A stretch of DNA of 44,699 nucleotides from an uncultured Polynucleobacter sp. (lineage in GTDB: Bacteria > Pseudomonadota > Gammaproteobacteria > Burkholderiales > Burkholderiaceae): contig CALMBU010000100.1 in NCBI GenBank assembly GCA_937863045.1, forward strand, positions 1 to 44,699, in the 5' to 3' direction. The position numbers were made by a program, and so were the translations under genes. Below are positions 12,897-15,704 of this stretch, one piece after another. Each line of letters begins with the position of its first letter. Within the stretch, counting starts at the first letter, position 1. Below the pieces are notes generated by a model. The model ran no database searches. It was not told the DNA's origin and saw only the letters and a program-made list of their open reading frames with translations.

Positions 12897-14018
12897 TTAC
12901 TTCTTGCGACGTTTTTTAACACCGTCTGCGAGTATCTCTAATACATTCAGAGAGTCATCCCAACCAATGCACGCATCAGTGATGCTGGTTGCATACTTAA
13001 GGTCATGCGGATTGTCTTTGCCAGGAGTGAATTTTTGTGCTCCAGCAAATAGATGACTTTCCACCATCACGCCAAAAATTTGTTTTGAGCCTTTGGCCAA
13101 TTGACCAGCAATGTCCTTGGCTACTTCAATCTGGCGCTCATGTTGTTTACTTGAGTTGGCATGTGAACAGTCAACCATCAATGAAGCTGGAAGTTTGGCG
13201 GCATCAAGCTCGCTACAAGCTTTGGCGACACTTTCCTGATCATAGTTTGTGGTTTTGCCACCACGAAGAATCACGTGACAGTCACTATTGCCTTTTGTTT
13301 CAACAATGGCCACCTGACCATTTTTGTGAACTGATAAAAAGTGGTGTGGGCGGCTCGCTGATTGAATCGCATCTGTGGCAATTTTGATGTTGCCATCTGT
13401 GCCATTCTTAAAGCCAATCGGTGCTGAGATACCAGAAGCTAATTCACGGTGAATTTGGCTTTCTGTGGTTCTGGCGCCAATGGCACCCCAAGAAATAAGG
13501 TCACCAATGTATTGTGGAGAAATGACGTCCAAGAATTCGCTACCAGCAGGCATACCCATGCGGTTGATTTCAATTAGTAGGTGGCGAGCGATTCTTAAGC
13601 CCTCATCAATGCGATAGCTCTCATCAAGGTATGGGTCATTGATCAAACCTTTCCAACCCACGGTTGTGCGAGGCTTTTCAAAATAAACGCGCATGACGAT
13701 TTCTAGTTCACCCTCAAATTTTTTGCGCTGCTCTAATAATTTATGAGCATAAGCAACTGCGGCACTTGGATCATGGATAGAACATGGGCCAATGATCACT
13801 AAAAGACGATCATCCTTGAAGTTCATGATGTCACGAATCTTCTTCCTGGTTTTGCTGATCAATTTCTCAACAGATGTGCCTTGTATAGGGAAGAAGCGAA
13901 TGAGATGCTCTGGCGGCGGTAGCACCGTGATGTTTTGAATGCGGGCATCATCAGTCTCTGATGTTTTATCAATACTGGCATACCAGCTGTCTCTGGTGCT
14001 GAGAGATTTATCAACCAT
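12897..14018 (-). CDS. aroG: 3-deoxy-7-phosphoheptulonate (DAHP) synthase, class I alpha (AroF/AroG/AroH type)
   Basis: A 373-residue enzyme that condenses phosphoenolpyruvate and erythrose 4-phosphate, the first step of aromatic amino acid synthesis. Family marks are the N-terminal DDARI element (allosteric arm region), IGPCSIHDP at about residues 76-84, the central GARTTESQIHRELASG, KNGTDGN and DCSHANSSK. The frame is open ten codons upstream, but ATG 14018 is preceded by a good Shine-Dalgarno (AAGGAG at 14027-14032). Transcription probably passes through an attenuator with an aromatic leader peptide (14061-14198). The mRNA is expected to end at the UUCG terminator at 12832-12853. Which aromatic amino acid inhibits the enzyme cannot be read from sequence alone. 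Confidence 0.95.
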   Translation of the reverse strand: MVDKSLSTRDSWYASIDKTSETDDARIQNITVLPPPEHLIRFFPIQGTSVEKLISKTRKKIRDIMNFKDDRLLVIIGPCSIHDPSAAVAYAHKLLEQRKKFEGELEIVMRVYFEKPRTTVGWKGLINDPYLDESYRIDEGLRIARHLLIEINRMGMPAGSEFLDVISPQYIGDLISWGAIGARTTESQIHRELASGISAPIGFKNGTDGNIKIATDAIQSASRPHHFLSVHKNGQVAIVETKGNSDCHVILRGGKTTNYDQESVAKACSELDAAKLPASLMVDCSHANSSKQHERQIEVAKDIAGQLAKGSKQIFGVMVESHLFAGAQKFTPGKDNPHDLKYATSITDACIGWDDSLNVLEILADGVKKRRKK

Positions 14019-14060: not shown

Positions 14061-14090
14061 AAAAAAAAACCGCCGTTGGTGTCGGCGGTT
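14061..14090 (-). terminator. Attenuator terminator in the aroG leader
   Basis: On the minus strand, arms AACCGCCG (14090-14083) and CGGCGGTT (14075-14068) form an eight-pair stem with a seven-base loop. A run of nine T (14069-14061), partly shared with the stem, follows. This is a strong intrinsic terminator placed upstream of the aroG start and downstream of the leader peptide stop, so it would stop transcription before aroG unless prevented. Confidence 0.88.
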
Positions 14091-14150
14091 ATTTTGAGTG
14101 CTGGAAATTTATGCTTGAATTTCTGCCTCTCGACCGCCGTGGGCTGAGAA
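14083..14150 (-). promoter_or_regulatory. Alternative antiterminator and leader hairpin of the aroG attenuator
   Basis: The leader bases CGGCGGT (plus coordinates 14133-14139, the Gly17-Gly18 codons) can pair with ACCGCCG, the 5' arm of the terminator at 14083-14090, in a seven-pair helix that would exclude the terminator. A competing upstream hairpin pairs TTCTC (14146-14150, codons 13-14) with GAGAG (14127-14131) and GCC with GGC inside it, hiding the same segment. A ribosome waiting on the first aromatic codons would cover the first arm of that hairpin and leave the antiterminator segment free. This is the classical 1:2, 2:3, 3:4 arrangement. Pairing was done by eye. Confidence 0.68.
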
Positions 14151-14186
14151 CCAAAAGTAAAAGAAATAAAATTTATTTGCAGACAT
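14109..14186 (-). CDS. aroG leader peptide rich in Phe, Tyr and Trp
   Basis: A 25-residue ORF with ATG at 14186 and TAA at 14111-14109. The sequence begins MSANK, followed by eight consecutive aromatic residues FYFFYFWF at positions 6-13 (five Phe, two Tyr, one Trp), then SAHGGREAEIQA. It lies 36 bases after the tldD stop and 90 bases before aroG, with a strong terminator in between. Such a block of codons for the pathway's end products, directly before a terminator and the first pathway gene, is what attenuation leader peptides look like (trpL, pheL, hisL by analogy). The mixed Phe/Tyr/Trp content suggests that shortage of any aromatic amino acid, mainly Phe and Tyr, relieves termination. 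The ORF has no Shine-Dalgarno and may be translated from a leaderless transcript. Confidence 0.85.
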   Translation of the reverse strand: MSANKFYFFYFWFSAHGGREAEIQA

Positions 14187-14192
14187 GGGGTT

Positions 14193-14198
14193 AATGTA
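14193..14198 (-). promoter_or_regulatory. Possible extended -10 promoter element of the aroG leader transcript
   Basis: On the minus strand TGCTACATT has a TG-n extended -10 pattern with hexamer TACATT, six bases before the leader peptide ATG. No convincing -35 is visible, in keeping with extended -10 promoters. The hexamer matches the consensus at only four positions, so this is tentative. If real, the leader mRNA would begin at or next to the AUG. Confidence 0.4.
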
Positions 14199-14222
14199 GC
14201 ACAGTTTTATTTGTTTTAGTGA

Positions 14223-15704
14223 TTAAGCAGTTCCGCCAACTGTCATATTGTCGATCCTCAATGTGGGCTGACCAACGCCAACTGGCACGCTTTGACCTTC
14301 TTTGCCACAAACGCCGATGCCACTGTCCAAATCCATGTCATTGCCAATCATGCTGATATCTTTGAGTGACTCAGGGCCATTGCCAATGATGGTGGCTCCT
14401 TTGACGGGGTACAAAATTTTCCCGTTTTCAACCCAATAAGCCTCAGACGCTGAAAATACAAATTTGCCACTGGTGATGTCTACTTGCCCACCACCAAAGT
14501 TGGCCGCATAAAGTCCTTTTTTGATGCTGCCAATGATTTCTTGAGGATCTTCTTTGCCGCCCAACATATAAGTATTGGTCATGCGAGGCATTGGAAGAGA
14601 TGCATAACTTTCACGTCTGGCGTTACCGGTTGTTGGCATTTTCATTAGGCGAGCATTAAGACTGTCTTGTATGTAACCTTTAAGAATGCCATCTTCAATC
14701 AAGGTGGTGCATTGAGTAGGGGTGCCTTCATCATCAACAGACAAAGAACCGCGGCGACCTGGAATGGTGCCATCATCCACAACCGTGACGCCCTTAGCAG
14801 CGACTCGTTGGCCAATCTTGCCAGAAAAAGCTGATGAACCTTTGCGATTGAAGTCGCCTTCAAGGCCATGGCCAATAGCTTCGTGCAGTAATACGCCTGG
14901 CCAGCCTGGTCCTAAGACAACAGTCATAGGGCCTGCGGGCGCAGGTCGAGATTCAAGGTTGACCAAAGCTGAGCGAACTGCTTCATTGATCCATTGATCA
15001 ATCTTATCTTTGACAAAAAAGTGATAATCAAACCTACCGCCACCGCCGGATGAACCAACTTCACGACGACCGTTTTGCTCTGCAATCACGGTGATCGAAA
15101 TGCGTACCAGGGGACGTATATCCGCTGCCAGAACACCGTTTGCACGAGCAACCAACACAACATCAAATTCGCCAGCAAGACCCGCCATCACCTGCACAAT
15201 GCGTGGGTCTTTGGCTTTGGCTTTGCGCTCAATGTCTTCTAGGATGGCAATCTTTGCTTTGGCATCAAGACTATCTAATGGATTGAATGATTGATAAAGA
15301 GCGTGGGTGGCAGGCGTTTTCCATTTGGGGCTGATGTAGGTACTCTTTTGTTGAGCCCCAATCACGCGCGTAGCCTCAGCAGCATTTCTTAATGCCAAAG
15401 CACTGATTTCATCTGAGTAAGCAAATGCTGTTTTGTCATGACTGACTGCGCGCACACCAACACCCTGATCAATGCTAAAGCTGCCTGATTTAACAATGCC
15501 CTCTTCAAGACTCCAAGATTCATTGTGAGTTCTTTGGAAATACAAATCAGCATCATCTAGTTGGTGCGTGTACATGTGAGCAAGAGTCTTTTGCAGGTCT
15601 TGTTCAGAAATGCCTGCTGGCGCCAAAAGAATTTCTTTTGCAATATTTAAAGCATCAGCTCGACTGAGATGCAGAGGGTTTTCTAGTGCAAGAGTTGAAT
15701 TCAT
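14223..15704 (-). CDS. tldD: Metalloprotease TldD
   Basis: A 493-residue protein of the TldD/PmbA family (E. coli TldD 481). With its partner PmbA/TldE it forms a zinc-dependent protease that degrades unfolded peptides and processes microcin B17 and the CcdA antitoxin in E. coli. The metal-binding HExxxH motif reads HEAIGH at residues 274-279, the mark that separates TldD from PmbA. Other family segments are [38 protein letters not shown] and the C-terminal [22 protein letters not shown]. It follows the nitrilase gene by eight bases. pmbA is not in the window. Downstream comes the aroG leader, without an obvious tldD terminator of its own. Confidence 0.96.

Follow-up and report, generated by a model that had tools for sequence, protein, structure and literature searches.

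Results

The aroG locus and its leader ORF

The stretch of DNA analysed, referred to below as the window, comprises 44,699 nucleotides from an uncultured Polynucleobacter species. On its minus strand a short leader ORF lies between tldD, which ends at position 14223, and aroG (Table 1). Eight of its 25 codons form an unbroken run of five Phe, two Tyr and one Trp codons, and the ORF is followed by a terminator. The product of aroG matches TIGR00034 with 520.7 bits (cut-off 173.2) and also PF00793, which makes it a class I DAHP synthase. A first-pass annotation had described a 25-codon ORF with eight aromatic residues in a row in the tldD-aroG gap, a strong terminator after it and the first enzyme of the aromatic pathway behind it; translation, terminator scan and family models agree with this description. 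Absent from it were a segment of the ORF that is able to pair with a terminator arm and the -10 element just 5' of the ORF.

Table 1. Features of the aroG leader region, in coordinates of the window.
Feature	Position	Strand	Basis or remark
Extended -10 element, TGCTACATT	14193..14201	-	TACATT hexamer, 3' end 6 nt upstream of the leader ATG
Leader peptide ORF, product MSANKFYFFYFWFSAHGGREAEIQA*	14109..14186	-	translation; relatives' leaders
Regulatory codon run (putative), F Y F F Y F W F, codons 6-13	14148..14171	-	translation, chance test, position profile (155 leaders)
Strand 1, UUCUC (last Phe codon and first Ser bases)	14146..14150	-	MFE fold; predicted partner GAGAG of strand 2
Strand 2, CGGCGGUCGAGAG	14127..14139	-	sequence; within ORF, CGGCGGU repeats the terminator 3' arm
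Strand 3, CUC...AACCGCCG, predicted antiterminator 3' side	14083..14098	-	pairing; last 8 nt are the terminator 5' arm
Terminator, AACCGCCG-ACACCAA-CGGCGGTT-T7	14061..14090	-	
Strand 4 and U tract, CGGCGGUU UUUUUUU, terminator 3' arm	14061..14075	-	terminator scan
aroG, class I DAHP synthase, putatively controlled gene	12897..14018	-	likely start 14018; longest ORF from 14048

The start of aroG is most likely at 14018 (MVDKSLST) rather than at the first ATG, 14048, because AAGGAG precedes 14018 (at 14032-14027) and relatives L005-L008 have stop codons inside the extension from 14048 to 14018. An HMM search with the 25-aa leader peptide, a length that is hard for HMMs, gave no Pfam or NCBIfam family at E up to 10.

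The aromatic run had been called far from chance in the first-pass annotation, and resampling bears this out. Markov-1 resampling of the window (100 rounds, six frames) gave a longest aromatic run of 6, and one of at least 8 never arose; an ORF of 15-40 aa with eight aromatics in eight codons arose in 1 of 20,000 resampled intergenic stretches. A 1.1-kb stretch scanned on both strands holds 5 terminator-like sites, against 1.1 ± 1.0 in shuffles, and the fold of the whole leader is moderately better than that of shuffles (z -1.9; 12 of 200 shuffles equally low).

Conservation in the genus, family and order

aroG was detected in 88 of the 101 genomes of relatives. The loci named here are the best 80 of 591 aroG loci, i.e. 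the closest ones, and 69 of these 80 carry a leader at the ORF-scan threshold of 5.5. The 11 others are five Polynucleobacter loci (L038, L040, L041, L051, L078), two Cupriavidus loci (L084, L106), L087, which ends at a contig edge, and L069, L074 and L097, which have a weaker aromatic leader below the threshold. tldD was found within 600 nt upstream of the leader in 42 of the 69 named leader loci and was undetected there in 27. The relatives' peptides, such as MTSRIAFYFYFWFSVPGGREAIA and MKSATFFFSYFWFSSAVGGREF, have the aromatic run in common; those of equal frame share GGRE, which is read from conserved bases, and there is little peptide conservation beyond the aromatic codons.

Leaders below the threshold (L029, L069, L074, L097, L117) and those with a terminator badly found or missing (L048, L056) were dropped, and removal of near-identical copies took the set from 88 to 78. 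Alignment A1 holds 69 of those 78, the nine others being omitted. The alignment of Polynucleobacter with other Burkholderiales that the first-pass annotation had proposed reveals conserved aromatic codons, variable flanks and a conserved terminator, in the 3' arm of which GGCGGTTT is identical in 69 of 69 sequences.

Covariance model R1 was built from the 69 leaders and begins with the ATG, which keeps the promoter out of the model. A search of 399 genomes of the order with R1 yielded 107 matches in 105 genomes at E <= 0.01, and 102 of these matches (101 genomes) directly precede an aroG-type DAHP synthase gene on the same strand; the five without aroG are the five weakest (E 0.002-0.0099). 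The 102 linked matches consist of 94 of the 99 loci inspected, in which aroG lies downstream on the same strand, the window itself, and seven matched by coordinates alone. By coordinates, 76 matches are separated by 15-145 nt from the start of a listed aroG match downstream. An aroG-type gene at E <= 1e-40 is present in 306 of the 399 genomes, and 101 have an aroG-linked R1 match. All eight ORF-scan leaders from other families, seven of them outside the R1 training set, were recovered by R1. In the window's own genome the aroG leader is the only strong model match, the next having an E value of 0.04.

A second model, R2, was built from 99 leaders, and of 160 family genomes it matches 128; each of ten family loci inspected has a leader of the kind MSAKFYFYFFWYLRPLADREG before aroG. 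Within the genus of the window a model match is present in 18 of 101 genomes and absent from 83. R2 did not match the aroG upstream regions taken from Neisseria gonorrhoeae, a Cupriavidus second replicon, Burkholderia stagnalis, Vibrio and E. coli; the Neisseria region has only a TTG-started, Phe-rich ORF, and the one E. coli and one Vibrio region have no aromatic leader.

Several other loci were noted in these searches. A second, weak match in genus g46 (L255, G342:C1:638005-638107) is a terminator near ribosomal protein-like genes on the other strand and was rejected as a false positive; it is the one inspected of several similar weak second matches in g46 genomes. Cupriavidus loci L084, L106 and L294, of which L084 and L294 are on a second replicon, have a window-like aroG before which the leader was not found. 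Locus L090, from a record named Solimonas, has an aroG 76% identical to that of the window and has the leader. Solimonas is a gammaproteobacterium, and transfer, misnaming and contamination are the candidate readings for this locus.

Spread beyond the order

R2 gave 16 matches in 369 genomes drawn from the class. The seven at E <= 4e-9 precede aroG; for the nine at E >= 2.7e-4 there is no aroG in the stretch fetched. In 299 genomes drawn from the phylum it gave 47 matches in 43 genomes, and the phylum loci inspected leave out nine matches with E > 0.003. Strong matches stand before aroG in inspected loci of families f63 and f68 of the same class and of f253, f256 and f260 of the same phylum, with leaders such as MIHLTASFWYFYSSSLAAGGLRSI and MNAARASFYFWYYFPKPLAEEGLRSP (f253, f256, f260 and f63). 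The exceptions among the phylum loci are L292 (f260) and L290 (f189), which are without aroG, and L289 (f232), which is outside aroG. The leader peptide of L289 (201-317) is presumably pheM, the leader of E. coli pheST, and this match is an unplanned positive control.

Terminator and predicted competing RNA pairings

The stretch GGCGG..GAGAG that follows the aromatic codons repeats the 3' arm of the terminator and can pair with its 5' arm. Its GAGAG is predicted to pair either back to UUCUC, where the aromatic run ends, or forward to the stretch directly before the terminator. Predicted energies in the window are -19.2 kcal/mol for the antiterminator, -13.0 for the terminator and -14.3 for the 1:2 helix. 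Together these predictions suggest the classic 1:2/2:3/3:4 architecture of an attenuator.

The pairings were evaluated in a set of 177 distinct leaders, which leaves out L172 and five matches without aroG. Patterns for GGCGG and CCGCC were found in 155 of them, and these were folded; the other 22 comprise 11 without an exact GGCGG at the strand-2 site, nine without the terminator 3' arm pattern and two without CCGCC. Some 2:3 pairing is therefore built into the folded set: every MFE has at least 4 such pairs, and shuffled strand 2 still averages about 4. For these reasons energy is the better measure. Mean folding energy is -23.3 kcal/mol for intact strand 2; shuffling strand 2 raises it to -16.7, the terminator has -17.8, and a leader's own strand 2 gives a lower energy than shuffled ones in 149 of the 155 leaders.

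The forward helix of GAGAG, a second antiterminator helix, sits outside the terminator and therefore tests the antiterminator alone. Among 40 diverse leaders (strand-2 tails <67% identical) the own partner beats the mean of swapped partners in 31, and 4 of 20,000 permutations, which ignore relatedness and G+C, were as good as the observed pairing. GGCGG stands in frames 2, 0 and 1 in 79, 69 and 7 of the 155 leaders, respectively; its presence in all three reading frames indicates that it is preserved as RNA, not as peptide.

Covariation support for the 2:3 pairing is weak. RNAalifold on A1 (69 leaders) returned the terminator alone with a covariation term of 0, the invariance of the terminator core limiting covariation. 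In fixed columns 80.4% of 2:3 positions are paired, and 51 of 500 shuffles reach the count of pairs changed on both sides. On a tree from which 7 of the 155 leaders were left out there are 3 compensatory double changes, and 6 of 10 strand-3 and 15 of 43 strand-2 changes end paired. Beyond the core, plain permutation makes the 2:3 extension look strong (242 against 168 ± 9), but on the tree it is backed by few independent changes. The 1:2 helix is paired in 94.5% of cells over the 69 sequences, with 3 pairs changed on both sides; the distant L275 is poorly paired.

The last aromatic codon begins a median of 14 nt before strand 2 in the 155 leaders. A ribosome covers up to 12 nt past its codon, according to the portion of PMC4833913 consulted, and the distance from run to strand 2 is close to this reach. 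The window's leader ORF has its stop codon 22 nt beyond GGCGG, and the distance is at least 20 nt in 43 of the 155 leaders, the window included. A ribosome at this stop has thus cleared GGCGG, so that a switch would have to use the GAGAG tail and 1:2 refolding.

Amino acids represented in the leaders

All 177 leaders encode Phe; 164 have Tyr codons and 118 have Trp codons, and 113 leaders combine the three. The leader ORF was picked as the most aromatic near each match, so high aromatic counts are favoured; aromatics number 4 to 8 per 8 codons in 174 of 177, with fewer in L242, L243 and L248. The wobble base varies (TTT/TTC 492/295, TAC/TAT 167/131), and Leu, which would be expected from a mere U tract too, is outside the six commonest residues at all eight positions of the run. 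Phe is most likely the main signal, followed by Tyr; roughly two in three leaders have Trp. Sensing of all three aromatic amino acids, as the first-pass annotation had it, is plausible for the leaders that encode all three and is not general, Trp being limited to the number given above.

The same attenuator could effectively be a sensor of Phe, or of Phe and Tyr, with the Trp codon kept for its place beside strand 1 and the supply of Trp having no influence. This alternative is a serious one, although we judge it somewhat more likely to be wrong than right. The ranking of the three residues agrees with it, and Trp often adjoins strand 1, W being at offset -1 in 68 leaders. UGG is dispensable for strand 1, however, since L055 and L060 have UUCUC without UGG. 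The co-occurrence of all three residues in 113 leaders argues in the same direction, as does the finding that in 75 of 155 leaders the interval 9-24 nt ahead of strand 2 holds codons for Phe, Tyr and Trp alike.

Two published observations could be read in favour of this alternative. C. glutamicum AroR is described in part of PMC11802643 as responding to Phe and not to Tyr. In the portion of PMC6379268 consulted, deletion of either aroG1 or aroG2 of Ralstonia solanacearum raises the lacZ fusion of the other gene about 10-20 fold, and in the deletion strains Phe lowers it 2-3 fold; in the wild type the fusions change little, and Phe is the only addition made. The words leader and attenuat- are absent from that portion of the account of aroG1 and aroG2 (PMC6379268). 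Mixed Phe/Tyr/Trp sensing remains in our view likely but unproved, as judged from the codons present.

Promoter element, predicted leaderless start and apparent loss in Polynucleobacter

A promoter scan at the window locus gave no promoter with a -35 element. From the position of TACATT in the extended -10 element, which lies between tldD and the leader ORF, transcription is predicted to start at the ATG or within 1-2 nt of it. Of the 177 leaders, 111 have the motif TGNTANNNT ending 6-9 nt upstream of the start codon, and for 110 the distance is 6-8 nt; shuffled upstream regions yield 0.8 such cases on average and shifted controls 0-3. The first set, which is the closer one, accounts for 80 of the cases (out of 87 leaders) and the model-match set for 31 (out of 90); an extended -10 is present in 0 of 16 leaders inspected from other genera of the family. 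Transcription initiating about 7 nt downstream of the hexamer would begin at the ATG or beside it, so leaders with the motif are predicted to be leaderless. Leaderless starts have been described elsewhere: Sinorhizobium trpL RNA starts at the ATG (part of PMC7298713), and several Streptomyces leaders are reported to be leaderless (part of PMC8079986).

Polynucleobacter loci that lack the attenuator were inspected in 26 cases (L012-L019, L021-L030, L038, L040, L041, L051, L078, L148-L150; within these, L028/L040 and L021/L051 are probably the same genomes). In all 26, aroG closely follows tldD and TAAAAT ends exactly 6 nt before the aroG ATG. The attenuator has apparently been excised and aroG moved to the place of the leader relative to its promoter, and the aroG mRNA is predicted to be leaderless.

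Discussion

The ORF, its aromatic run, the terminator, the complementary strands, their conservation and the linkage to aroG are directly established. We infer that these form a ribosome-mediated transcription attenuator of aroG, with a probability of about 0.87. The start site, translation, stalling, read-through and the relevant amino acids belong to the inferred part of this model. The first-pass annotation had proposed attenuation of aroG as a candidate, which gains support from the conservation and from RNA that could form a competing antiterminator.

RNA polymerase would start at or next to the leader ATG and so produce a leaderless mRNA that is proposed to be translated during its synthesis. 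When Phe-, Tyr- or Trp-tRNA is short, a ribosome would stall on the aromatic run and cover strand 1, which would leave strand 2 free to pair with strand 3; the 2:3 pairing would block the terminator, and aroG would be transcribed. When the tRNAs are charged, the ribosome would reach the stop codon, strand 2 would be covered or folded back on strand 1, strand 3 would pair with strand 4, and transcription would end in the U tract.

Three further explanations do without such a switch or assign the signal differently. Arrest by a nascent leader peptide is a known means of amino acid sensing, and the leader could be a TnaC-like arrest peptide that senses free amino acid instead of tRNA charging. 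We consider this highly improbable: the peptide after the run is unconserved, with the same bases read in three frames, and leaders differ in how F, Y and W are arranged and in the number of aromatics (4 to 8 per 8 in all except three leaders). A small functional hydrophobic peptide or small RNA followed by a plain terminator has a precedent in rnTrpL and peTrpL of Sinorhizobium, which act in trans (part of PMC7298713). The little peptide conservation outside the aromatic codons, the position of strong matches before aroG and the mimicry of strand 4 by strand 2 leave it hardly any probability. A chance ORF before a tldD terminator, which the terminator on the same strand downstream of tldD might suggest, is virtually dismissed by the resampling of intergenic stretches, the leader loci in which tldD was undetected and the -10 element between tldD and the ORF.

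For the attenuator a wider history can be proposed tentatively, at slightly less than even odds. It would be ancient and present in several classes of the phylum, with one codon run at the entry to the aromatic pathway reading the charging of three tRNAs as an OR gate, so that lack of any single one would switch aroG on; in the lineage of the window it would be leaderless with a set spacing from promoter to ATG; and it would have been excised in most Polynucleobacter, leaving the aroG ATG at that spacing.

Control of the first aromatic step by TyrR and TrpR in E. coli is textbook knowledge. To our knowledge, its control in betaproteobacteria has been little studied, and a conserved cis-element working without a repressor would explain it in many of them. 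A natural mixed-codon leader would also be a system for examining how one attenuator sums several tRNA signals. The leader might account for the Phe-dependent aroG expression published for the relative R. solanacearum (part of PMC6379268).

Comparison with known systems

Leader peptides with aromatic codons, a terminator and an antiterminator precede E. coli pheA (pheL) and pheST (pheM). These leaders differ from that of the window in their target genes and in having Phe as the signal; attenuation of both is named in the portion of PMC11802643 consulted. The window scores 16 bits against Rfam Phe_leader (RF01859; gathering threshold 55) and 20.2 bits against Leu_leader (RF00512; threshold 50), and both were rejected; cmscan listed no match of the window to Trp_leader. 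The trp leaders share the logic of attenuation and, in Sinorhizobium trpL, the leaderless start (part of PMC7298713), but have Trp codons and trpE as target. E. coli aroF, aroG and aroH encode the same enzyme family as the window's aroG but are controlled by the TyrR and TrpR repressors, as described for gamma-proteobacteria in part of PMC5343134.

A further likeness is with Corynebacterium. The C. glutamicum AroR/aroF attenuator is reportedly that of Neshat et al. 2014, and its transcript is said to be leaderless. The AroR leader precedes aroF and mediates attenuation of a DAHP synthase gene (parts of PMC11802643 and PMC4046766). As in the window, a leader with aromatic codons stands before a DAHP synthase gene, and expression rises under Phe limitation; unlike the window, the organism is an actinobacterium, the motif is Phe-Tyr-Phe, and there is an effect of Phe but none of Tyr, the likeness being one of description only (part of PMC11802643). 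Regulatory RNAs are predicted upstream of Shewanella aroF and aroH (part of PMC2659441), and an attenuator upstream of the Vibrio aroA-I-alpha_Y > tyrA (DAHP synthase-tyrA) operon (part of PMC1173090). These predictions concern the same enzyme family and, judged by their description, differ in being computational lists for other genes and lineages in which leader peptides are not given in the portions consulted.

The portions of the literature searched, which left aside the likely sources Vitreschak 2004, Lopatovskaya 2010 and Panina 2001, contain no aromatic leader peptide before a Burkholderiales aroG. In the first-pass annotation, a mixed leader for all three aromatic amino acids at the pathway entry was said to be a distinct regulatory design if real. 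Attenuation of DAHP synthase genes as such is already in print for C. glutamicum and in the Shewanella and Vibrio predictions; what is new here is the breadth of its distribution, the mixed Phe/Tyr/Trp codons and the architecture.
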